Shown here: piece after piece, positions 5,355 to 58,841 of the stretch
How the letters are laid out: every line of letters begins with the position of its first letter
Position numbering within the stretch: the first letter of the stretch is position 1
Source of the DNA: Mytilinidion resinicola
Lineage: Eukaryota > Ascomycota > Dothideomycetes > Mytilinidiales > Mytilinidiaceae
Length of the DNA stretch: 64,000 nucleotides
NCBI RefSeq assembly: GCF_010093595.1
Contig: NW_022985457.1
Location: forward strand, 304,226-368,225
Reading direction: 5' to 3'
Program-made: the position numbers and the translations under genes
The notes under the pieces: generated by a model
The model's input: only the letters and a program-made list of their open reading frames with translations
What the model was told of the DNA's origin: nothing
The model's database searches: none

Positions 5355-7416
5355 ATGTCTCTCTTCGCCTGCGAGGATCCCTATATCAAGCCGCGCCTTT
5401 CCAGCTCCTTTTACTCCTCATCCGAACTGCCTGGTCAATTCAAGCCTGGCGACCTCCACCCCAGCGACTTCGTTTTCAATAAAAAAGTCAACTACCACCC
5501 GGAGAAAGTGTTCCTTTTTGGGTCCGAGACAATCTGCTCGCCTCCCCCTCCACCTCCCCCGGCCGGCGACACGAGCGGGAACAATCCACCATCTTCGTCT
5601 CATATTGCGCCAGAATGGCCCCATTGGGATCCGGAAGTCACACTTCGCATCAAAAATCCTGACAGGAATTATTTGACTTGCATGGCCCATCTTGCAGGCG
5701 ATAAAGGCAGGCGGTGTGATCGTATGGTATTTTCTGCCGCTACTGAGATAAAATACTGCCTATGGGCGATAGGAAAGCTCAGTCCGCTGCTTGCCAAGAC
5801 CTCGGTTTGCCTGTATGAACTTTCAGAAGTCATGCTTTGTCTCACGCATGCCGACTTTCAGAGCATGCTTCTGGATAAGTGGAGGAAGGATATTGACCGG
5901 TTAATAGAAGGACATGAGTCTAAGGAAAAGCAAAGGTCTATGCAAGAGGAAGATTCTGCGAAAGAGCAGGTTTTGACGGAAGACGGTGGTCTAACGGGGG
6001 AAGAAGAGAATGGCGAAGCGGCGGCGGAAGAGAAGAAACCAGCAGAAGACCCGGCGAGCCCTCAAAATCAAGATCCAACAAAAGAGGATACAGTGTCACA
6101 TGTCACGCGTCAACTCATGGAGATGCAATATTTGCTCGAGGGACTGAAAATGAGGGGTCCACGAGGTAAGGAGCAATGGGACTTGAGCCCAGAGCAAAGC
6201 ACGATGGATCAGCTTTGGCGCACGGTGATGGACACGAAGGATGTGACTGCGACCTTGAAGCTGGCACTAGAAAAAGAGAGGACTGAGAAGGGCCAGCGTG
6301 AAAAGGAAAGTGAGTCACAGGAGGAAGAGGCACGAAAGCAGAGGGAAGAAGAAATGCTTGAAAGGGAGAAAGAGGGGATTGAGAGGGAGCGACTTGAGCA
6401 AGAAAGAAAGCAAAAACAAAAAGAGGAACGGCATGCAGAGGAGACGAAGCAGCGGGATACAACAATTCGTCTCATTTGTCGAGAAATAGAAACTACAGGA
6501 GAAGCGATGGACAAGCTGGCCAAGAGGAACGAGGAGCTGCTCAAGAAGATCCAAGACATCTCCAAGGAAAACGAAGAACTGCATGAATTTCACGACACGC
6601 TAGTAAGGGGGAAGAAGGAGCTACTCAAGAAAAATCAGGATCTATCCACGGATTGCGTACAACTACATGAGTTTCACGACACGCTACTAAGGGAGAAGGA
6701 GGAGCTACATAAGGAGCACGAAAGGATGACATCGGAGTACATCCGTTTGTTGGGAAAAGCGACGGAAGAAGCGGCACGTACAAGACAAGAGATGGAGGGA
6801 TTGGCCAAAAGCAACGAGCAGTTGGATAGGAAAAATGAACAATTAGCCGATAAGAATGACCAACTGCTTTGGGAAAAGAAACAGTTGGAGCTCCTGGTCC
6901 TTAAAGGGGACGGTTTGGAGAAAGAAAAAGAGGTCTGGAAGAAGGAGAAAGCGAAATTGATCAAGGAGAAGGCCGGAGTGGAAAAAAGATGGATGAGTGA
7001 ATTTTGGTCACGATATGAAAAGCGATGGAAAGATGTCAAAGGGAATGATTCCAGAGCTGCATCAGTACAGTTTTTACCCTTCTCTCAATTTCTACAATAT
7101 GAGCTAATCTCATCTGCAGGACGAGCTTCGCCGAACGATCGAATTGCGTCGGACCATTCCATGGCCAGTTTTCTCGGGCGACTTTGAGGATGTGAACGAA
7201 AAGAACGTCGAGGACTTCTTCCGCAAGGCGACGCCTGACCCGGAAAATGCTGGTCGGATGTACAATTTCATGGCGCAGGAATGTAAAAATTGGCATCCTG
7301 ATAAGATACCACTTTGGTTCGACGCTATTACGGATGCAAATACTGCGGACAAGTTCAGTACGGTTGCTCGCACAGCAATCAAGTTAAGATCTGAAGCACA
7401 AAAGAAAAAGACGTGA
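5355..7416 (+). CDS. Coiled-coil protein with N-terminal Cys motif and J-like C-terminal segment (tandem paralogue 1)
   Basis: Exons 5355-7064 and 7120-7416 give 668 residues; the 55 nt intron is phase 0 (GTACAG..CTGCAG). The N-terminal region has WPHWDPEVTLRI and a cysteine pattern (LTCMAHLAGDKGRRCDRMV) that I associate with fungal proteins of unknown role. The middle, about residues 290-560, is highly charged Glu/Lys/Arg heptad-like sequence, i.e. a long coiled coil, including a duplicated ELHEFHDTLxR block. The C-terminus (IPWPVFSGDFEDVNEKNVED, then NWHPDK) resembles a J-domain-like HPDK helix found at the end of some fungal coiled-coil proteins. The gene at 8265 has the same order of parts and the same intron position, so the two are tandem duplicates. 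The cellular role is unknown. Confidence 0.75.
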
Positions 7417-8264
7417 TAAGAGCCGCCTAGAGAGGCGCCGCTAAAACAGATGCTCATTCTATTTGAGTCGTATTTTCGTTAGGAACCACATTTTCTATAC
7501 ACATAGCGGTGTTTAATTATCCATTTTCAGTCATATTTCTTCTCATTCATAGGATATTCATAACTTGAAAGATCTCTACTCGACGTTGCATACGTGCACG
7601 TACTAGCCGTGACGTCGTTTTCTTTCCCAATACCATTGAAACCTTACCCTATGGCCTCAATCGTCTCTCTGGTTGCTTCATTTTCCCGCCTGCCTCATAC
7701 CGGAAGTGCAGGAACCCGTGCCGAGCCTCCTCAGCCTTCACCTCTAGACTTAAGTCGGCACACTCCCACTGCCCCCCATACCACCTTTCTAACCATCGTG
7801 GCTTAGCATTCCACCCACTAACACGAAAACAGAAGCTCATACAGATTCCCAAATTAGCGGGTCCAATGTCCGTGTGGGGTGAGGGGTCCAAGTGCTGTGC
7901 CGCACGCGATAAGCGCCGACCGCTGGGCAAACCTCATGCGTTTCGGGCTGCGGTAACTCCGCCTCGCCTCTCCCCTGCAAGGCTTGTGACAGGTACTATG
8001 CGGCCCCTGTAACAACCTGTCATGCAGTTGCAGTGGAGGTGCTGTGAGGTGGCTGTGAGACTAGCGGCTGTGGGTTCATGCAGTCTCCCACTGCGAGTCG
8101 GGGTGGGGTTTATATGATGGGTCTTTCGCTGGGCAAGTACAGTCACAAGTAGTGCTTTGAGTGTTCTTTATTTCAGAGAAGTCATTTTCCTAGTCGTGTG
8201 TATCTTCTTGGAATCCCGGTGTTCCTCTTTCACGTTCAGTCATACCCTTATCCTCGCCCCCAAA
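7417..8264. other. Intergenic between the coiled-coil paralogues
   Basis: No separate gene is seen in this stretch. The frame of the second paralogue is open upstream to 8157, but the ATG at 8265 has the same AAAATG context as paralogue 1 and begins the conserved part. Confidence 0.5.
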
Positions 8265-9722
8265 ATGGGCCTCCACTCCGCCCCTAAATGGGACCCCGAG
8301 ACCACTCTCAACATCATAAACCACGGCCACCGCGGCTCCCTCACCTGCGTCGGTTACGCTTATAGCAAACACCGCGGCTGCAAAACCCATATCAACGCCG
8401 CCAATCGCGCCTCCGCGTTCAACATCCTAGAGGACCTCAAATACCTAAGCCCACATAGCTCTTCAGTTCAAGTGCAACTGTATAAGCTCGCGAGGCACAC
8501 GCTATGCCTCGGCAACCACCAAAGTCAGGTTGATAAGGTAGTCGACGGGTGGATGAGTGATATCGCCAAACTACCAAGATACAGCACATCTCGTGTCCAA
8601 GTCAAAAGGGAACCTGAGGACTTGGATATGGATGAGAGGTGGGATGAGATTATGGAATTGAACGATCTACTCCATGATCGGGAGACGAGGATGTTGCATC
8701 GGCGCCTCGTGCAGGTAGCGCGGTCGCTGGAAAGAGCAGCGGCGAAGGGGTTGGACACTGTGGCGCTAAAGGGCGAGATGGAGCATCTTTTGCGCCAATT
8801 GAGGAAGCTAGGAGTGGAGTCACAGCACTTCAAGCAGGAAGATGACGAGTATGACTCTGAGGAGGAACGTGCGGAGGAGAGGTGGCGGGAGCAGAAACGG
8901 AGGCAGGACAATTGGGAGAGGAAGTGTCGACAGGCGCACGAGCGTCGGATGGAGGAACAGCGAGAAAAAGCGAGGCAGCGAACAGAAAGACTAAGAAAAG
9001 AGAGGGCCGAGACAGAGCGGCGTGAGACAGAGCGTAGAGAAGAGGCAGAACGACTTAGGAAGGAGGACGAAAAACGCGAAGAGGAGGCGAGAAGGCAGGC
9101 GGAACAGTTGGAGAAAGAGAAAGTTGAGAGAGAGCGACGGGAGGAAGAACGTCAAAGACGTGAACAAGAAGAAAAGTTGCGCAAAGCGGCAGAGGAAAGG
9201 CGTAAAAGGGAGACCGAGGAGCGGAACGAGCGTGCCAGGCAGCGAGCTGAGAAGATGAGGAAGGAGAAAGAACGCTTAGCCAAGGAGAAAGCCGATGCGG
9301 AGAAGAAGACGTTGGAGGACGCATGGTTGCGATACAGCACGGGATGGGGTATACTCAAGAAGAACACTACCAAAGCGACGTCGGTACGCTCACACTTCGT
9401 CCTTTACTATCTACGGCACGAACTAACGTTCATACAGGCTGAATTTCGTCAAATAATACCGTGGCCTGTCGTTTCAGGCAAAGTTGAAGACGTCAACGAT
9501 AAAAATGTTGAAGAGTTCTACCGAAAGGCTACCCCTTACCAGGACGATGCCAGCAAGATGTTCCTATTTATGAAGATGGAATGTCTTAACTGGCACACCG
9601 ACAGATTGCCACAGCGGCTCGGTGACGGTGAGGTCGATGCCACCCTTGCGGGCCTCTTTAATACAGTCATGCGCATGGTGATCAAGTTGAGGTCGGAGGT
9701 GCAAGAGAGACGAGCCAGATGA
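8265..9722 (+). CDS. Coiled-coil protein with N-terminal Cys motif (tandem paralogue 2)
   Basis: Exons 8265-9383 and 9438-9722 give 467 residues. The 54 nt intron (GTACGC..ATACAG) is a multiple of three and lacks stops, so read-through would add 18 codons; I prefer splicing because the junction falls exactly where paralogue 1 is interrupted. Domain order matches paralogue 1: KWDPETTLNIIN, a Cys motif (LTCVGYAYSKHRGCKTHI), a long Glu/Arg-rich coiled coil (about residues 200-370), then IIPWPVVSGKVEDVNDKNVE. The HPDK of paralogue 1 is HTDR here, so any J-like activity would be lost. The Cys motif keeps both cysteines. The role is unknown; self-association through the coiled coil is a reasonable inference. 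Confidence 0.75.
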   Translation: MGLHSAPKWDPETTLNIINHGHRGSLTCVGYAYSKHRGCKTHINAANRASAFNILEDLKYLSPHSSSVQVQLYKLARHTLCLGNHQSQVDKVVDGWMSDIAKLPRYSTSRVQVKREPEDLDMDERWDEIMELNDLLHDRETRMLHRRLVQVARSLERAAAKGLDTVALKGEMEHLLRQLRKLGVESQHFKQEDDEYDSEEERAEERWREQKRRQDNWERKCRQAHERRMEEQREKARQRTERLRKERAETERRETERREEAERLRKEDEKREEEARRQAEQLEKEKVERERREEERQRREQEEKLRKAAEERRKRETEERNERARQRAEKMRKEKERLAKEKADAEKKTLEDAWLRYSTGWGILKKNTTKATSVRSHFVLYYLRHELTFIQAEFRQIIPWPVVSGKVEDVNDKNVEEFYRKATPYQDDASKMFLFMKMECLNWHTDRLPQRLGDGEVDATLAGLFNTVMRMVIKLRSEVQERRAR

Positions 9723-26857: not shown

Positions 26858-27070
26858 CATCGACAGTCTCATTTGAGCTTGCTGCACTACTGCCGCCACG
26901 AGAATTTAGAGTTCCATAGTCATAGCTCAGTTTAAAGGTGCCATTCAGTTGTTCGGATGCGGAATCTACAGTACCAAGACACGAATTTGGGCACTCCCTG
27001 CAACTGCTTGGGATAAACCAGTAGGCTTGAAACTCCAAGTACGATGCCAACGTATTAGATATCAGACTAC
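26858..27070 (-). pseudogene. Possible aspartic-peptidase-like fragment
   Basis: On the minus strand an open stretch contains YWFIPSSCRECPNSCLG followed by LNGTFKLSYDYGTLNSRGG. This recalls the segment after the first catalytic Asp of A1 aspartic peptidases (a W-x-P-S-S-x-C region, then a T-F-x-x-x-Y-x-x-G region). The catalytic DTGS itself is not seen upstream. It is either a relic or an exon of an unresolved gene. Confidence 0.3.
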
Positions 27071-28271: not shown

Positions 28272-30240
28272 ATGGCGTCGTCAGTGTCTTTTGGCAATGC
28301 GAACTCGGGCTTCCAAGCTGGTATCATCAACGGCCCCGTCAATACCGATTTCCATTTTCCGCCAGGTAAGTTGCGGTAGAAGAGGTGCGAGCCGGCCATC
28401 GCTAACGTCAACCCTACTAGAGCGACCAGAAACACCACCAGACCCGTGCGCTATCCTACCCTTCAGCCGTGACACAGACTTTGTCGAGCGGGGCAACATA
28501 CTCGATCAGATCCACCAAAAATGTGCTGTGCCAGGATCTCGGACTGCGCTCGTCGGCATGGGCGGTGTCGGGTGAGTACCAGCGCGTCCACCCGTAGAAT
28601 ACAGTTGCTAACTGCAGAGAAGCAAGTCGCAACTCGCCATCGAATACGCATACCAAATCCGAGAGCGATCCCCGCAAACGTGGGTCTTTTGGGTGCATGC
28701 GAGCAGTGCTCGATTCGAGCAGAATCATCAGGACCTTGCACGCTACCTCAAGATCCCCGGACGGCAGGACCCAAACGCGGATATATTCCAACTCGTGCAC
28801 GACTGGCTGCGTGACAAAAAGAGAGCGGGGGAATGGGTCCTCATACTCGACAATTTCGATGATGCCGATTTCCTTTTCGATGCTCGAAGTATAATGAACG
28901 CACGCGAATTAGTCCGTGGGGCGGATACTGCGCATAATGGGAAAGCGACCGGGTTGGGCGGCGGGAGCTTGCAGCCGCTCGTGTCATACCTCCCACAATG
29001 CCAGCACGGATCCATCCTGGTAACAACACGGACTAGAGACGCGGCGCTGAAGCTAGTTGAGCAGCGTGACATTGTTACAGTTGAACCAATGAACGAAACG
29101 GAGGCGATCGCACTTTTACAAAGAAAATTACCTGAGCAAGATGATAGCAAAAGCGTCACCGAACTCGCTGAAGCGCTCGAGTTTATGCCGCTTGCTATTG
29201 TTCAGGCAGCGGCTTACATCTCTCGGAGAGCACCGCGCAGTTCGGTGTGGCAGTACCTCGAAACCTTCCGCAAAAGCGACCGCGAAAAAATGAGTCTGCT
29301 AGACAGCGAGGCAGGACATCTTCGAAGAGATAAAGAAGCTAAGAACTCCATTATTATCACATGGCACATCTCATTTAATCATATACGTCAAATCAGGCCA
29401 TCAGCAGCTGATTTGTTGGCACTGATGAGCTTGTTTGATCGGCAAGGGATTCCTGAGACGCTGGTTCGAAGTCAAGTTGAAGTCAAAAAAAGTCAGGGAA
29501 TTCCCGAGACGCTGGTTCGAAGTCAAGTTGAAAGCAAAAAGAGTCAGCAGAGGAAACTTTCTCGAAGAATCCAGCGGCTATCACTTCTTTTTCATCGCAA
29601 CAAAGACCTATATAAGGGTGAGAAGCAGGACAGTGAGAGCAATGAGGAAATAGACGGATTTGAGGACGACGTGCTCATGCTGAAGGACTACTCGTTCATC
29701 TCAATTTCTGAGGGCCGATCTAAGTTTGAGATGCACGCGCTAGTACAGTTAGCAATGAAGACGTGGATGGAAGCAAACGGACAGCTGGAAAGATGGAGAC
29801 AGCATCATATCAAGATTCTGTGTGCTCAATTCCCAATAGGAGAGTACAAAAAGTGGCCCATATGTCAAGAACTTTTTCCACACGTCAAATCTGCAGCGGC
29901 GCAGCAGCCGCTAGCACAAGAATCACTGAGAGACTGGTCCTCTCTGCTACACAACGCAGCGTGGTACGCGTGGACTGTGAACAATAGGGCTGAAGCGGAG
30001 GAGATGGCTATTCAAGCGATGGAAGTAAGAAAGAAAATCTTCGGGTGGGAGCATAAAGATACGTTAGACAGTATGGCAATGGTAAGCCTGGCCTATAAGA
30101 ATAAGGGCCAGTGGGGCGCAGTGGAAAAGCTGCAGGTGCAAGTGATGGAGATTACTAAGAAGAAACGAGGAGCGAACCATCTAAACACGCTAGCTGGTAT
30201 GAACAACCTGGCGTTAACGAATGAAAGCCAAGGCCGATAG
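28272..30240 (+). CDS. NLR (NB-ARC/TPR STAND protein) with N-terminal sigma-type amyloid motif
   Basis: Exons 28272-28365, 28421-28571 and 28623-30240 give 620 residues. Residues 1-31 are a small domain with FGNANSGFQAGIING at 7-21, followed by ERPETPPDP and the conserved linker FSRDTDFVERGNILDQI. The NB-ARC core shows the P-loop GMGGVGKSQ (77-85; the acceptor must be AGAAG|C for this), Walker B LILDNFDD (about 155-162), TTRTRD (about 216-221) and a GLPL-like MPLAIVQAAAYI (about 270). A 51 bp in-frame duplication encodes QGIPETLVRSQV twice (29443-29544). TPR-type 42-residue units start near residue 520 and stop at TAG 30238-30240. The frame continues with more TPRs beyond it. The P-loop and N-terminal motif are intact, so templating may survive while ligand sensing is damaged. 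Confidence 0.85.
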
Positions 30241-49919: not shown

Positions 49920-50040
49920 GCTAACGTAGGTTATCAGGTTATTACGTTTACCCTAGCTTTTACACGTATTCTGAATCCGCGCACCTGCCAAGCTTTTTCT
50001 TAATATTCGGAAGCGTAATAACCTGATCACCTACGTTACC
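49920..50040. mobile_element. MITE-like element with 25 bp terminal inverted repeats
   Basis: The left end, TAACGTAGGTTATCAGGTTA and on to 49946, is inverted at 50014-50038 with one mismatch in 25 (T versus G). The element is 117 bp and noncoding. The outermost TA on each side fits a TA target duplication, as left by Tc1/mariner-type transposases. No transposase is encoded, so it would be a non-autonomous element. Confidence 0.8.
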
Positions 50041-50078
50041 AATGTTTTGCTAGAAATGGGGTACCTCGGCAGGCCTCC

Positions 50079-50245
50079 TTGACAAAAAGTGGCAGTCCTC
50101 GAATCTGTGGTTTCATCCTACAGTTTCATATTCTAGCCACACACTCACTTTATGCTTGTGTCCGCTTGCCTGGCACCGCTTGAGGCCCCCTGGTACGTTG
50201 GCCTGATTTGAAAAACTACATAATCAACATGTCGGGTAGCTCTTC
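50079..50245. repeat. Dispersed repeat, copy 2
   Basis: It begins TTGACAAAAAGTGGCAGTC and shares CGAATCTG, ACTCACTTTATGCTTGTGT-like and CTTGCCTGGCACC segments, plus a closing TAGCTCTT, with 16801-16968. The identity is imperfect but collinear over about 165 bp. Confidence 0.65.
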
Positions 50246-50594
50246 GGGCCACCTCAGACTGTGTTGGACCTCTTTATGTTCAGCGAACCTACTCGGGGAT
50301 TGTGGCTGTCAAGTGCTGACACATGCAACATTGACTTCTGCTGCTCAGGGGTCACAGGATAGAAGTAATATGACAGCAGCCTATTGGATTTTTAATTCGT
50401 ACTCCTTCATATAACAAGCGGTGATGTTGAAGTGTCCATGTGGATTTACAAAGGTACATACCCTTGTAAGGTGGGGGCGAAATAACAGGGTCCGAGCTCC
50501 GTCAGGCACACCCAATGACGACGACTACGAAGTAGCCTTACAAAACCGTCCCGCGCCCAAGACACCACCCAGCAATACCACGCCTTCTTCCACC

Positions 50595-51324
50595 ATGTCT
50601 GGCTACGAAGGTACAATGATCCCCTCTTCCATTTACAGTCGCCTCTAATGCGCAAACACAGTCGAACACAACATCTCCACCACCGAATCTAGACCCGAAA
50701 CCAGACGCCCGAATCACCGCACCCGCCCCGACCTCTCTACCTTCTATTCCACTCTCAATCTTGTCGATACCTCCGATCCAGATAGCCACCACAATGCCCA
50801 CGCCGTACCACAGCCCGAAAATATGACCGCCGCGTATCGGCTGCTGGCCAACGCCTTGCAAATGATGCAGGGCGGCGGGGGCAGCGACGACCCCAATGCC
50901 CCGCTGCAGACAATGATATTGAGCCTCATGCACTCTGCAGATAATCCGCCAAGGGAACTTGAGGGCGTGCCGGATAGTTTCCTAGACGAGCTGGAGCGCG
51001 TGCCGAAGAAGTCGTTGAAGAAGGACGATGAGTGTCCGATTTGTTGTAATCCGTTTCTGGATGGTGTGTGGACCTCTTGCGTATATTGGATTAGGACCAG
51101 TTGAAGAGAGGCTAATGCTGCAGTGTATAGATGAGTTTCCGCTGGTAGTCCATCTCCCGTGCCATGAGAACCACCGCTTCGACCTCGACTGCATACGCCC
51201 GTGGTTGAAGCTCAACGATACCTGTCCGCTGGATCGCAAGCCGCTGATCAAGAAGAGGGAGCCGCGCCGTCCAGTTAAGACTGATGACGACGAGGAAGAG
51301 GAATGGGATGATTTATACGCTTAA
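50595..51324 (+). CDS. RING-H2 finger protein
   Basis: Exons 50595-50610, 50662-51063 and 51131-51324 give 203 residues; the first exon is only 16 nt. Near the C-terminus is a RING: DECPICCNPF, then after an intron LPCHENHRFDLDCIRPWLKL and TCPLDRKPL, giving the C-x2-C .. C-x-H-x2-H .. C .. C-x2-C style ligands of RING-H2 E3 ligases. The tail is acidic (DDDEEEEWDDLYA). No membrane helix is seen. It probably acts as a soluble ubiquitin ligase with unknown substrate. It sits next to the small-Cys array, but nothing in sequence links them. Confidence 0.85.
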
Positions 51325-51948
51325 AGGGGGTGGGGTTTGGTTCTGCATATGACGGAGTTCGAAGGAGGGAGGTTTTGATGATACTCAGACCGCTTGTCTA
51401 AGGACAAGCAGTACCTACTATACTATACCAAGGTACCCTGCATGGTCATGGCTTCATGAACTTCGAGTTTTCTCCATCTCGCATTCCCATTTTGGAGGTC
51501 ATCAAAGTTGTCCTTGACACATTGGAAATTCCGTTGAAGGACCTCCGGGCACATCTTCCACAGAACCTTGATGACCGAGTCTGATTTGCGGGCTCGAATT
51601 TTCCACACCGTATTATCACTTCAAATCGCACTTCCGTCAGAACACTCGCAACATCCACGAGGATCTTCACCTTGAAGCACTCCCGGCCACTCCTGACTTG
51701 ACGCTTTGCTCGCCTGCATATAACTATCACATCAATGGAGCGCACGTTGAATAGCAGTACCCATGAAGCAACCGTTTCATTCCATGATCTCACCATCTAT
51801 CACGGTCAAACCGTCCACTCCATCCCCTCGAATTCCCACTTTTTGAAGAAATCTCAATCTCTGATTACCAATCCCACTTCAGTATACCTATCTCAGCTAT
51901 TCCTATCCTGAACCGCTCGCGGTTCTTCTTTCATACGCTTAGCTTGAC
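51325..51948. other. Intergenic; possible unresolved minus-strand fragment
   Basis: On the minus strand, 51800-51440 contains two protein-like frames (REFCFKVKI-type VRSGRECFKVKILVDVASVL and VIKVLWKMCPEVLQRNFQCV). They would need one splice to join. I recognise no family. Confidence 0.3.
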
Positions 51949-52198
51949 TTAAATGCCATCATACGCACACCTATCACACTTGACCGTCCGCCTCGTCTCC
52001 TGGTCCCAACGGTACCGGCAATCCTCCATCAGATATTCGTCTATATCACGGCGTTACCAGTTAGTGTCTTTCCATTCTAGAAACTAGGAGCAGTAATGGA
52101 GACGTGTTATACGTACCCCTTCTTCGCATTTTCGGGCAGGGGTGATATTTCCTTTCGCGATGACCGCAAGTCCATTTGATTTCTTCGATAGTGCACAT
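51949..52198 (-). CDS. Small Cys/His protein, array copy 1 (intact)
   Basis: Exons 52198-52117 and 52040-51949 give 57 residues; the 76 nt intron (GTACGT..TATAG, branch ACTAAC) is phase 1. Exon 1 has Cys at positions 2, 11 and 21 with His at 13 (MCTIEEIKWTCGHRERK). Exon 2 has a lone Cys (MEDCRYRW) and then VKCDRC near the end. This copy has the longest exon 1 (82 nt against 73 in the others). There is no signal peptide or membrane segment. The cysteine/histidine pattern would suit binding of one or two zinc ions, but no known family is recognised and no function is assigned. Confidence 0.65.
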
Positions 52199-52494
52199 CT
52201 TACGGCTTACAGCTTTTGGTTACTTTGCTGAAATCTGGGCCAAAGTCGTCTTTTCAAATGCTTTTTTTGAGTGGTTCTTCAGCGCTTGATGGTTGCAGAG
52301 TATGTTAAAGAACTAAATATCAACAAAGCTGTTTAGAATTCCGAACTCCTAAGTACTCGCCCACGCCGCCGACGTAAAGTGCTGAAACAACTCACACCAT
52401 GCTGGCTGCTTCGCTAGAGCCGCCAACTATCCTCGACACGCTGCCATCGGCCCCACTATCGGCAAGCTGGACACTTGGACGGACACGTTACTTG

Positions 52495-52665
52495 ATGTTT
52501 CCACTTCCGGAGGCAAAAAATGGAAACCTATCTAGAGAAGCGGCCATAAGGGTTAGCCTCCGATACTAACAACCACCACAGAGAACGCATACCTCGCCGG
52601 GCACAATACTCGTTCACACGCTGCTTGTGACCACAAGTATAGAGCTTGATTTCGATGATGCACAT
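52495..52665 (-). pseudogene. Small Cys/His protein, array copy 2 (frameshifted)
   Basis: Exon 1 (52665-52593, 73 nt) is intact and reads MCIIEIKLYTCGHKQRVNEY with Cys 21 next. Donor GTATGC and acceptor signals are present. Exon 2's conserved ending, VTCPSKCPACR then stop, is one base out of frame with exon 1. The run of six A (plus strand 52515-52520) is the likely site; one base fewer would restore the frame. Either this copy is dead or the run was miscalled. Confidence 0.6.
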
Positions 52666-52799
52666 TTAGCAGATGGCTGAGAGGGGCGCTTTAATCTGGG
52701 TCGCAAGGAATGTTAAGTATTCGAGGATTTGTTCGTACTATGAGGAAGTTGCTAATATAGTCAGTAGGAGTCAGCAAATCGACAACACCGCCCACTGGC

Positions 52800-53040
52800 T
52801 TGGTCCAGTCACACCTCCTACTGCCGATTTGGACACTTGTACGGGTGCCCGATATGGGTCCTAGTACTCGAGTTGGACCATGGGCACTCCTAAAGGGCAT
52901 TTATTTAAGACTATGAGATCGCACTTATCAGCTTCCGGCATTGGAAAGGGGGCCCTAGAGTACATACATCGCGCGGCACAGTAATCGGCAGTGTGCTGGT
53001 TGTGGCCACAGGCGAAAAGCTTGATCTCTATAGTATACAT
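52800..53040 (-). pseudogene. Small Cys/His protein, array copy 3 (degenerate)
   Basis: Exon 1 (53040-52968, 73 nt) reads MYTIEIKLFACGHNQHTADY, so Cys 2 has become Tyr while Cys 11, His 13 and Cys 21 remain. A GTATGT donor follows. Exon 2 cannot be joined to a CxxC ending: only a remnant YKCPNR before a stop is visible near 52820. Confidence 0.5.
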
Positions 53041-53272
53041 GTTGAGAGATTGTATTGGAGGGGATGCTCGAAGCTTGGATTGTTTTGATTGAGCAGTGGT
53101 ACTAAGAGGTGAATGCTAACCTAGACGAAAGAAATCAAACATCCAGACAGTAAGTATTTCCACCATTCACCGCCTGGTGCGTTAAGCCCAGCCAACTAGC
53201 CTCGACACATCTTCATCCATCCCATGACGGTTTTTGAGGCGCCCCCGTCAAGAACCTGTCCGGTCGGTCCAC

Positions 53273-53526
53273 CTACCGGAACTCCCACGCTCCTTGATCG
53301 AACCGCCTCGGTGCGCAGTCAGGGCATTGCGACAGAAACTTCTTTTCGTAAATCGTGACAAGGCAGCGCTGGCGAACTAGGCCACCTATGGAGATGAAAG
53401 AAGTACCATTTAGCCTTGGGTGCAAATATAGAATAAAGCCAGAGATTACTTACGAGGATCATCACAAGGCTCAACCCTTGACTCGTTGTGGCCGCAGCTG
53501 AATCTGGAGACAAAAGTGTTACACAT
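53273..53526 (-). CDS. Small Cys/His protein, array copy 4 (intact)
   Basis: Exons 53526-53454 and 53385-53273 give 61 residues, phase-1 intron of 68 nt (GTAAGT..CCATAG). Exon 1 starts MCNTFVSRFSCGHNESRVE with Cys 2, 11, 21 and His 13. Exon 2 has VRQRCLVTIY and the pair SQCPDCAP, ending FDQGAWEFR. This ending is shared with copy 5, so the two are the closest pair. A 3' flanking block (CAGCCAACTAGCCTCGACAC at 53189-53208) recurs beside other copies. No function is assigned. Confidence 0.7.
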
Positions 53527-53708
53527 CTCGAGGGAAGGTTTGGATATTGCCCGTTTCCGAGGTGTGTCTTAGAAGTATAGCTTCAATATACCTAGATGCT
53601 AATGAAAACCCCCCAGAGATATATTATCGAACGCTCCAACCTATGAAAACACTTCACAACCTGCCGCGCTGGTCCAGCCAGCTAGCCTCGACACGCTGTC
53701 TTCCTTCC

Positions 53709-53954
53709 TTACCGGAATTGCCAACTCCCTTGGTCATATCGATACGATGAGCATTGGGGGCAGGGTTCCCGATGTGCCACGTTTCTTTTCGAAATACGGT
53801 ATAAGAGGCATCTTGGCCCACCTATGCAGCAGTGAATATCAATGAGCTATGGGTATAAGGAAGAGACATCCAGGATCTTACCAGGGCTATCACAGGCTTG
53901 ACCCTTTGGTTGATGGTGCCCGCAGCCGAATATGTGGATGATTGTTTCGCACAT
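53709..53954 (-). CDS. Small Cys/His protein, array copy 5 (intact)
   Basis: Exons 53954-53882 and 53821-53709 give 61 residues, phase-1 intron of 60 nt (GTAAGA..GCATAG). Exon 1 reads MCETIIHIFGCGHHQPKGQA, then Cys 21. Exon 2 has GPRCLLYRI, the pair EPCPQCSS and the end YDQGSWQFR. It is the same length as copy 4 in both exons. The 3' flank carries CAGCCAGCTAGCCTCGACAC (53675-53694). The protein is soluble by composition and its function is unknown. Confidence 0.7.
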
Positions 53955-54162
53955 CTTGGGTGAAGTAGATTTGATGTTTAGGCTATTGAAATGGTTGGTT
54001 ACAGTTATATTTCCTGGCGCAATTATGAATCGAAGAAGAAAGCTAATGTAGTAGTGGGAGATCCACTACTAAATACTCGAAAGTCAAACCCAGCCTCCAC
54101 GCACGAAGACACTTCATTGCCTGCTGGCTGCTCCGTTGGTCCTGCCACCTCTCCATAACATA

Positions 54163-54421
54163 CTATGTCTGCCAGAACCGCCGTCCCCTTTGGTCAGGAG
54201 GGTGCGCTTCGCAACTATTACAACTGTACGCAAGCCGTTTACTACCCCCGATGGGGTATCCAGGACACCGCCGTCCGCCTACCGAGGAAGAAGCATTAGT
54301 CGACCTTGGTCAAACGAAGATGGACCCCTGTAGGGCTGTAGTACTCACGAGGTTCGGCACACTGTTGAGGCACTTGCTGCTGGTGGCCGCAGCTAAATAT
54401 GTAGATGATTACTCGGCACAT
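54163..54421 (-). CDS. Small Cys/His protein, array copy 6 (intact)
   Basis: Exons 54421-54349 and 54278-54163 give 62 residues; the intron (GTGAGT..CGGTAG, branch CTAAT) is phase 1. Exon 1 starts MCRVIIYIFSCGHQQQVPQQ, then Cys 21. Exon 2 has RRCPGYPIGG, then YSCNSCEA, ending RRFWQT. All seven conserved Cys/His positions are present. No function is assigned. Confidence 0.7.
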
Positions 54422-54739
54422 CGTGAGTTCCGGATAAGGAGGTTGAAAAGTTGGATATCAAGGTAACTATTTCAAATGTGAGTGTAGATGGTGATTCTTG
54501 AAGGTTGGTTTAGGAGTTGAGTACTGATAAAGGAGCAGAAGATAGCGAAGATATAGTAAGTTTGAAATCCAACCTTCACGTCTCAAAACACCTCACCATC
54601 TACTATGTTCAGCACGTCTACGTCACTCACTCATCTACTGAACTCGGACCTTTTACCGGCAACAGCCATTGGCCATCGCTAGCCTTACATATTGGCATGG
54701 TGATGTTCAAATACACGTCACAAATCATACATGCTACGC

Positions 54740-54793
54740 TCCTACGGAAGCACTTGACCCTCGGCCACTACTCGAGCTGCATGAAGTACACAT
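54740..54793 (-). pseudogene. Possible relic of a small Cys/His exon 1
   Basis: ATG TGT at 54793 followed by a GTGGCCGAGGGTCAAGTGC-like stretch resembles the CGGCCACxAGCAGCAAGTGC part of copy 6, but no CGH motif or open frame survives. This is a weak call. Confidence 0.25.
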
Positions 54794-54959
54794 AAATTAC
54801 TTGTTTAGCCCGTCGCTGCATAGTAAAAAAGTGTTTTACGGAGTCAACGTTTACATTAAATCCCTCTAAATCTTAAAACATCTCGCTCCCTACCACCCCA
54901 GTCCAGCTAACCAGTACACCACCGCATCACCTCAGCCTCTACCGCCCACCTTGACAGCT

Positions 54960-55135
54960 AGAGTATTCATACGGATACCCTATGTGAATTTGATAGGCCG
55001 GCCCATTGTAAGATTCGGAGATTCTATCTTGCGTATGGTCCCACCCCAGCGGTTATGACCATCGATTCTGAACACGGGAACAAGGTCTTCGACATGGTGG
55101 CCGCAGGCATATATGTGGATAGTGATTTTGCATAT
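54960..55135 (-). pseudogene. Small Cys/His protein, array copy 7 (start codon lost)
   Basis: The reading ICKITIHIYACGHHVEDL aligns with exon 1 of the other copies, with ATA at 55135-55133 where the start ATG should be. Cys 2, Cys 11 and His 13 persist; the Cys at 21 does not. The donor is weak (GTCATA) and no exon 2 with CxxC is found. I conclude it is dead. Confidence 0.55.
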
Positions 55136-55425
55136 CTCTTGAGATTAGTGAATAAGCTAGGTGAAATGGTCAATAGTCTCCTTGATGTGTTCACGATCAG
55201 TCGCTGATAATTTCTCAAGTTTTGGAAGGAAAATTCGATTCGAAGAGTTAAAGAGGTAGTATAAGTATTGACATATTAAGATCGATATTATAGGTAGGTA
55301 GTCTGAGTCTTCCACGCCTCCCGCCAACTCTCGAGACACTTCACACCCTTCGTCTGTTCCGAATACCACACACCCACACCCAGATACACCACCACAATAC
55401 GTCATCCTTCCTACCTTGAGGAGAC

Positions 55426-55681
55426 CTAAATCCTGAACTTCGTCATACGGCTTATGGCACAGATTTCGCACTTGTACGGATGCCGTGGCCCGGGCGCGGT
55501 AGGGCCTGGCTGCCCCGGACACGGCGGCGCAATGCGGTGGAAGTTCACTATGGAAAACGGAGTAACAGTCAGCTCTAAGCTTCTAGGGTATAGATTCAGA
55601 GCACCTACATGGATTCACACACTGTTTTAGAGTGTATTGGCGGTGGCCGCAGCTGTATGTATGTTCAATCTGTTGGCACAT
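55426..55681 (-). CDS. Small Cys/His protein, array copy 8 (intact)
   Basis: Exons 55681-55609 and 55547-55426 give 64 residues; the intron (GTAGGT..CCATAG) is phase 1. Exon 1 is MCQQIEHTYSCGHRQYTLKQ, then Cys 21. Exon 2 is Pro-rich (APPCPGQPGPTAPGP) and then YKCEICAI, ending SRMTKFRI. The Pro-rich spacer between the fourth and fifth Cys is unlike copies 4-6, showing divergence of exon 2. No function is assigned. Confidence 0.7.
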
Positions 55682-55936
55682 TTTGAGTGTGATAGGCTTG
55701 GTGGGAAGTTTAGTAAACTAGACACCGGGCTCTCGGAAATGGTTCTTGGGAGTGGTTCTTTGAGAAGTGATGTTGATATATGAAAGTTGATGCAGAACTC
55801 AGAAAGCAAAAACCTGAGATTTAAATAATGGAGGTCGACCTGCGCCTCCAACTGTCAGGGTGCCTCAAGACCTGCTGGCTCCTGTGTTAGCCCAATTAGC
55901 TGGCACTCTATCATAGTAGCTGAACTTACGTCTCGC

Positions 55937-56229
55937 TCAAGCAGCTCTTTTACTCCTTAATCGCTCATACAAGCATTGGCCACACTCGCAAGTCTTGATT
56001 TCTTTCTTGGTGATGGGGTCCTCATCCCCTGGCTTTCCGGGGCATGATGGCACTGGTAGATCGTTATGAGGAACGCGTGCGAAGAGAAGGCCTGCGAAGA
56101 AGAAGTCTTGGTCAGCCTTTACTTTTTTTCTACGTCGCAGAAGGATTCTGGACTACGTTGCCTCTCACACCAATCAGTAACCACGTTCTTGTGCTTGCAT
56201 GTGTATGTAAACTCGGCTTTTTCGCACAT
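55937..56229 (-). CDS. Small Cys/His protein, array copy 9 (intact, longest)
   Basis: Exons 56229-56157 and 56091-55937 give 75 residues; the intron (GTAGTC..CGCAG) is phase 1 and its donor is poor. Exon 1 is MCEKAEFTYTCKHKNVVTDW, then Cys 21; the usual Gly 12 is Lys here. Exon 2 has VPSCPGKPGDEDP, then KTCECGQC and a basic end (RLRSKRAA). It is the first copy of the array in transcription order and the most diverged. Confidence 0.65.
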
Positions 56230-56873
56230 CTTGAGAGATCGAGGTAGAGTTTGAACGAGGCTTCGAGTAGCTTGTCTGGTATGTTCGAGGTTCCTTGCTG
56301 GAATATTTGGGAGAAGATCGAGGCAGAGTTTGAATATAGGTTCGAGTAGTTTGTTTGGTATGTTCAAGGTTTCGTTGCTGGCGTATTTGGGAAATCAATT
56401 CCTAGAAGTGAAAGCAAGAAGTATTTATTTGCAGTTATTGACGTAGGAGTCAAAACAAGGGGAGGAGGGAGTCAAGAAAATCTTACTTGAAACTCAAGAG
56501 TCAGCCCGCATGTCGCACTCTCGGAACCTTGGACATCATGCTGCATTAGTCCAGTCAGCTAGTATACCATGCTCCCTCATTCTCCTCTTTTTTCGGCACT
56601 ACGACTCATCCATACGCCTGCTTATACAGTCATTTAACGTGAAAGGCATCCCTGCCCGGGAGAGTGCGTTTCAACAGTTGAGCACATGTCGTGGCATGAA
56701 CCACGCTTTAGAGGAGGAGTATATGAATTTTAAATGAACCTAGGAATGTCTGTTAAAGGTTATCCTCACAACCTGCTACTTCAGTCTATCCAGCTAACTA
56801 GGACGTATGTACGCTTGCCTCCGCTACTAAGCTTTGACTCCAAGTAGCACCAACCAGGACTCATACCCCAGAC
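56230..56873. other. Intergenic, probable decayed array units
   Basis: A direct duplication of about 60 bp (GTTCGAGTAG..TTGGTATGTTC..AAGGTT) lies at 56260-56390. On the minus strand ATG TGC at 56687 starts a short MCSTVETHS frame that may be another dead array copy. Confidence 0.4.

Positions 56874-58841
<1,968 letters not shown>

Follow-up and report, generated by a model that had tools for sequence, protein, structure and literature searches.

A tandem array of two-exon Cys/His microprotein genes in Mytilinidion resinicola and a dispersed gene of the same pattern

What kind of protein is encoded by nine short, strongly diverged gene units in tandem, and what has kept a few cysteines and one histidine in place among them? 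The question is raised by a locus of the dothideomycete Mytilinidion resinicola that lies in a 64,000-nucleotide (nt) stretch of contig NW_022985457.1 (positions 304,226 to 368,225 of the forward strand; hereafter the window, whose own numbering is used below). On the minus strand of the window, from 51949 to 56229, stand nine tandem units of a two-exon minigene, as had been proposed, with the same two ends, in an earlier reading of the bare DNA (the sequence-only reading). We propose with moderate confidence that the array represents one branch, amplified locally and in part decaying, of a fungal Cys/His family not described before, whose proteins would most likely fold round zinc inside the cell.

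Nine tandem units with a conserved Cys/His pattern

All seven positions that the sequence-only reading had named as invariant are present in each of the six intact copies (6/6): C2, C11, H13 and C21, together with one Cys and a CxxC pair in exon 2. In an alignment of nine sequences, from the array and from the dispersed type described below, the invariant columns are M1, C2, C11, H13, C21, C29, C43 and C46. Position 9 is aromatic in 11/11 exon-1 sequences (the nine units, the dispersed member and its database relative P0002), and Gly 12 occurs in ten of the eleven, one array copy having Lys there. The Cys count is exactly six in the dispersed member and in all intact copies but one, which has seven; the six intact proteins are basic, with an isoelectric point (pI) of 8.3–9.4. 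The earlier claim that these proteins have no signal peptide was borne out by the residue runs, examined without a dedicated predictor: Cys stands at residue 2, no hydrophobic leader is seen, and in the dispersed member, as in every intact copy, the longest run of A/I/L/M/F/V/W/C spans 2–4 residues.

The exon-1 starts of the nine units, numbered here from copy 9 down to copy 1, lie at 56229, 55681, 55135, 54421, 53954, 53526, 53040, 52665 and 52198, with 375–714 nt between neighbours. Six of the nine give complete two-exon GT-AG models with a phase-1 intron, the number and the size range (57–75 residues) that had been predicted. These are copy 9 (75 amino acids (aa); exon 1 at 56157..56229 with phase-1 donor GTAGTC and a 65-nt intron, exon 2 to the stop at 55937..56091), copy 8 (64 aa; 55609..55681 and 55426..55547), copy 6 (62 aa; 54349..54421 and 54163..54278), copy 5 (61 aa; 53882..53954 and 53709..53821), copy 4 (61 aa; 53454..53526 and 53273..53385) and copy 1 (57 aa; 52117..52198 and 51949..52040). 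Their introns measure 60–76 nt, the range given previously being 50–76 nt. A CTRAY branch-point-like site lies 18–22 nt from the intron 3′ end in four of the six (shuffle mean 0.94, P=0.008), namely CTGAC at 21 nt in copy 9 and at 22 nt in copy 8, CTRAY at 18 nt in copy 6 and CTAAC at 21 nt in copy 1; the introns of copies 4 and 5 are without it. The DNA signature ATGTGY-24-TGY-3-CAY-21-TGY has seven matches in the window, all inside the array, and none in 50 first-order Markov simulated windows. An Rfam scan of 50000–58000 gave no match.

Three of the nine units are damaged, in keeping with the birth and death suggested earlier. Copy 2 keeps the four exon-1 ligands (52456..52665), and a search there for a GT-AG intron in phase 1 leading to an exon 2 with CxxC found none. 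Copy 3 (exon 1 at 52968..53040) has Cys2 replaced, and an exon-2 model was likewise sought without success. Copy 7 (55064..55135) lacks the ATG, and no exon-2 model was obtained; its exon 1 scores 58.4 against a nine-unit profile that includes the unit itself, the best score outside the array being −0.3. This broadly upholds the damage first described, to which the loss of Cys21 in copy 7, then unmentioned, is to be added. Two further candidate relic exons that looked plausible by eye, at 54793 and 56687, are absent from the 14 best profile matches per strand.

Paralogy within the array and a dispersed member

Whole genes of eight of the nine units, the one at 55135 being left out, were used as nhmmer queries, and six of the eight reached other units at an expectation value (E) ≤1. 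The best match, between copies 4 and 5, extends along the entire gene (E 5e-13), and copies 2 and 3 match each other at E 2.2e-8. Copies 1 and 9, at the two ends of the array, returned self-matches only. In local alignments of exon 1 alone against 200 shuffles, copy 1 is tied to copy 2 (z 6.4) and copy 9 has no partner above z 3; the non-coding matches of copy 9 are with copy 6 in the intron (z 5.6), copy 4 in the 5′ flank (z 5.1) and copy 6 in the 3′ flank (z 3.7). The flanks also match between units, so the duplicated unit seems to be gene plus flank, with the 3′ side better kept. Among eight 200-nt 3′ flanks searched with nhmmer, those of copies 4, 5, 6 and 9 match another unit (best E 2.4e-4, 3.8e-4, 4.9e-4 and 0.0013), that of copy 2 does so weakly (E 0.04), and those of copies 1 and 8 gave self-matches only; the sequence that follows copy 3 and extends into copy 2 matches the one that leads up to and into copy 3 (E 4.7e-8). 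The 150-nt 5′ flanks gave no between-unit nhmmer match except one at E 0.34, and the shuffle test put 5 of 36 pairs of 5′ flanks above z 3, with z 7.7 for copies 8 and 1.

Non-self nhmmer matches beyond 51949–56229 at E ≤1 were confined to 26915–27004 (E 0.89) and, just past the array, 56565–56522 (E 0.29). The latter covers one copy of a 31-nt 3′ flank element (family D2), which lies at 56531–56561 and again at 56766–56796, with no gene found beside either; these may be the last traces of two units that have decayed completely, in the gap before a glucoamylase-type gene.

The 47-Mb genome that carries the array also holds a dispersed, intronless gene at C12:781248-781391, which encodes 48 aa with Cys at 2, 11, 21, 29, 43 and 46 and His at 13. 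Its protein is read from an in-frame ATG inside a 216-codon open frame, and this start is backed by P0001 (98% identical) and P0002 (81%), two database proteins that are each exactly 48 aa long, both encoded by intronless genes on contigs of ~1 kb in metagenome assemblies and the only two at E ≤1 among 5.8 billion database proteins. P0001 may stem from a very near relative, and the claim of conservation therefore rests mainly on P0002. The three known proteins of this type are 81–98% identical among themselves and share with the array C2, C11, H13, C21, the further Cys and CxxC, an aromatic-small-C-G-H core and the lack of a hydrophobic leader. Unlike the array copies, the dispersed gene has no intron in its reading frame, is shorter and was found at one place in this genome, outside any tandem.

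Seven single-copy queries (the six intact proteins and one exon 1) were searched against the same genome, and two of them reached one place outside the array, C12:781248-781388 (E 0.0023 for copy 6 and 0.0022 for copy 5). The copy 5 query also gave C1:1136060-1136212, at E 0.077. The array profile scores the dispersed member, P0001 and P0002 at 34.0, 33.6 and 27.9 bits, and the reciprocal profile, built from the dispersed type, gives the six array copies 5.1–22.9 bits, five of the six above all 200 full shuffles. Once the Cys and His are fixed and everything else is shuffled, two of the six, copies 8 and 4, outscore all 200 shuffled versions. Because of these scores and of the residues shared at positions 9 and 12, the array and the dispersed gene can be read as one family by pattern and some common residues, with copy 1 at the edge of sequence detectability; the array thus appears to be one branch of a larger family whose dispersed member has close relatives elsewhere.

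Genome-wide motif scans revealed no further member, although members with other residues round CxH would escape them. A 15-place scan for [FY][ST]CGH gave nine places (four in the array, the dispersed member and four without the pattern; control 5), and one for WTCGH gave four (one in the array and three without an MC start; control 5). A Cys-rich stretch, L049 (G000:C8:1864564), has WTCGH and CGCC with no MC start and is possibly another small zinc-type sequence. Strict and relaxed signatures in 20 stretches of 10 kb (2030 N) recovered the dispersed member only, whose own stretch was among the 20; the other 190 kb, which gave none, are 0.4% of the genome and have little bearing on family size.

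As the sequence-only reading had supposed, no recognised family accounts for these proteins. None of the six intact copies matches Pfam at the curated cut-off, none of the three dispersed-type proteins has any Pfam match at E ≤10, and none of the nine sequences matches NCBIfam, a library built for bacteria and archaea. Fourteen residues round CxxC in copy 5 exon 2 resemble Zn_ribbon_RRN7 (PF11781; E 0.0067), a membership that we rejected: the score is 16.5 bits against a cut-off of 27.1, and the likeness involves one of six intact copies and 14 of 32 positions. TackOD1 (E 1.4) and Zn-ribbon_GIR1 (E 7.7), also for copy 5, fall far below cut-off. With the six intact copies as queries, protein database searches returned three candidates, none at E ≤1, and with the nine-row alignment (A3) six, of which only P0001 and P0002 lay at E ≤10. 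Absence from protein databases says little here, because both relatives found are intronless on contigs of ~1 kb, from metagenomic sources seemingly called without intron models. Pattern stretches in viral contigs (36) and in prokaryote genome contigs (43) yielded none that was confirmed, and the sole match of A3 among PDB sequences, a zinc-finger chain at E 4.5, was taken as chance. Literature judged by titles and abstracts gave no paper describing such a family, and neither did a search with one peptide stretch; similar M-C...C-G-H hypothetical proteins may occur in other ascomycete annotations. The array belongs to a genuine microprotein family, which, with neither a family match nor such a paper, is apparently undescribed and which has expanded locally with birth and death.

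Selection, decay and the chemistry of the cysteines

Over the 24 exon-1 codons shared by the six intact copies, the pooled proportions of synonymous (pS) and non-synonymous (pN) differences are 0.69 and 0.44, and with five invariant codons excluded 0.68 and 0.58; because these values are saturated and the codons few, their ratio is not reliable. pN exceeds pS in three of 15 pairs, and the pooled values show no sign of an excess. The earlier picture of ligand-like positions held while the remainder diverged agrees with these values and with the alignment. Surfaces changed by selection do not follow from them: with the ligands set aside, pooled pN is no higher than pS, and weak constraint between the ligands accounts for the divergence equally well. 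Repeat-induced point mutation (RIP) was rejected as the cause of divergence: TpA/ApT is raised (0.94 in the array and 0.94–1.08 across 51949–56870, versus 0.67–0.79 in other large stretches) but (CA+TG)/(AC+GT) is barely lower (1.12 versus 1.17–1.23), a mild RIP-like signature at most.

Could the array be mostly a decaying remnant, in which the tandem copies evolve neutrally or nearly so, those still intact are simply younger, and the dispersed 48-aa gene is the one that functions? The three damaged units, the pN of 0.58 near a pS of 0.68 outside the ligands, and the two gene-less D2 elements would all fit such a history, which we nevertheless consider unlikely. Intact copies differ in exon 1 by pairwise distances of 0.42–1.19, or ~0.2–0.6 per lineage. 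In a neutral simulation without indels (20,000 copies per divergence level), the ATG, frame and splice sites were kept in 22%, 6%, 2.2%, 0.4% and 0.06% of copies at 0.1, 0.2, 0.3, 0.5 and 0.8 substitutions per site. Copies that in addition retained all seven ligands made up 4.3% at 0.1, 0.3% at 0.2 and none of 20,000 at 0.3, 0.5 or 0.8. Moreover, positions 1 and 2 of the five invariant codons never differ, against a 20% difference at position 3 (75 comparisons). Exon 1 was located by means of the motif, which biases this comparison; the nhmmer matches are independent of it. Keeping frame, splice sites and ligands at such divergence is thus unlikely under neutrality. Selection has probably preserved all three through much of the history of the family, with the residues between the ligands free or changing.

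What the conserved residues do is a separate matter. A set of six Cys, the exact number in the dispersed member and in all intact copies but one, could form three disulfides, with the His incidental. The product would then be a small cysteine-rich peptide that resembles an effector or an antimicrobial and leaves the cell by secretion or by an unconventional route; size and tandem birth and death likewise recall the small secreted cysteine-rich peptides of fungi, for which such arrays are usual. We regard this as rather improbable: Cys follows directly on the initiator Met, a hydrophobic leader is missing, seven Cys are present in one copy, and both the His and a CxxC are conserved. Spacings of C-x-H and C-x2-C are typical of metal sites, and because of these pairs, the Cys at residue 2 and the missing hydrophobic stretch, an intracellular zinc site is favoured over disulfides, so that the proteins would probably bind zinc. 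The order C...C-x-H...C...C...C-x2-C recalls a RING or cross-brace zinc finger without its first ligand; unlike in RING, the array spacings do not fit, the ligands are seven rather than eight, and Pfam gives no RING match. It is very improbable that the N-terminal Cys is central, becoming residue 1 on removal of Met and lending thiol and amine to the metal site of a redox, oxygen or metal switch with N-end-dependent degradation, although M-C at residues 1–2 in all six intact copies, the dispersed member, P0001 and P0002 is what this would predict and the free amine would supply an eighth ligand.

Several observations weigh against an intracellular zinc family that unites the array with the dispersed gene. 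Three of nine units are dead; seven conserved ligands fit neither one nor two four-ligand sites neatly; and the AlphaFold model of P0001 (with P0002) is poor, with a mean predicted local distance difference test score (pLDDT) of 53.3 and a predicted template modelling score (pTM) of 0.30, unfit for structure search. Five of the seven single-copy queries did not reach the dispersed gene, and the reverse search reached copy 6 exon 1 at no better than E 0.22. Shuffles with Cys and His fixed attain the real score in 1–2 of 200 cases for copies 6, 5 and 9 and in 19 of 200 for copy 1, so that for four of the six copies a good part of the link lies in the Cys/His pattern itself.

On the zinc reading that we prefer, exon 1 would form a β-hairpin with C11-G-H13 at the turn and C2 and C21 at the base, of which the hairpin 2–11/14–23 in the P0001 model may be a hint, and exon 2 would complete the metal site or sites with a further Cys and a CxxC knuckle. 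Copies would have arisen by tandem duplication, at least some with the 3′ flank, and retained ligand set, frame and intron as the residues between drifted or adapted, giving each copy, if expressed, a different basic surface on one scaffold. A small adaptor that binds protein or nucleic acid would be the likely role, and the basic pI fits an acidic partner or nucleic-acid binding.

Neighbourhood and significance

Beside the array lies a GH15-CBM20 gene of glucoamylase type (56874–58508). Elsewhere in the window are a TPR gene with DUF7779 (28693–30240), which we take to be of the kind found in fungal nucleotide-binding leucine-rich repeat (NLR)-like proteins, and two open reading frames, 5355–7187 (610 aa) and 8157–9722 (521 aa), that are charged and coiled-coil-like and have no Pfam match at E ≤0.001; these two share, by eye, a similar-looking stretch WDPE.TL.I and look like diverged neighbours.

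Gene finders and the gene callers used on metagenomes easily overlook exons of ~25 codons, and families of this kind can stay invisible. The 48-aa intronless gene, with relatives 81–98% identical, offers a handle that can be found without intron models. It is a highly doubtful but conceivable extension that the array is a diversified branch of N-terminal-Cys zinc microproteins, in which the dispersed member would serve a basic function in the cell, perhaps that of a metal or redox switch acting through a Cys exposed after Met removal, and the tandem copies would be recruited variable binding modules. If zinc binding is true, the array would represent a very small two-exon zinc scaffold that diversified in tandem without an evident secretion signal.

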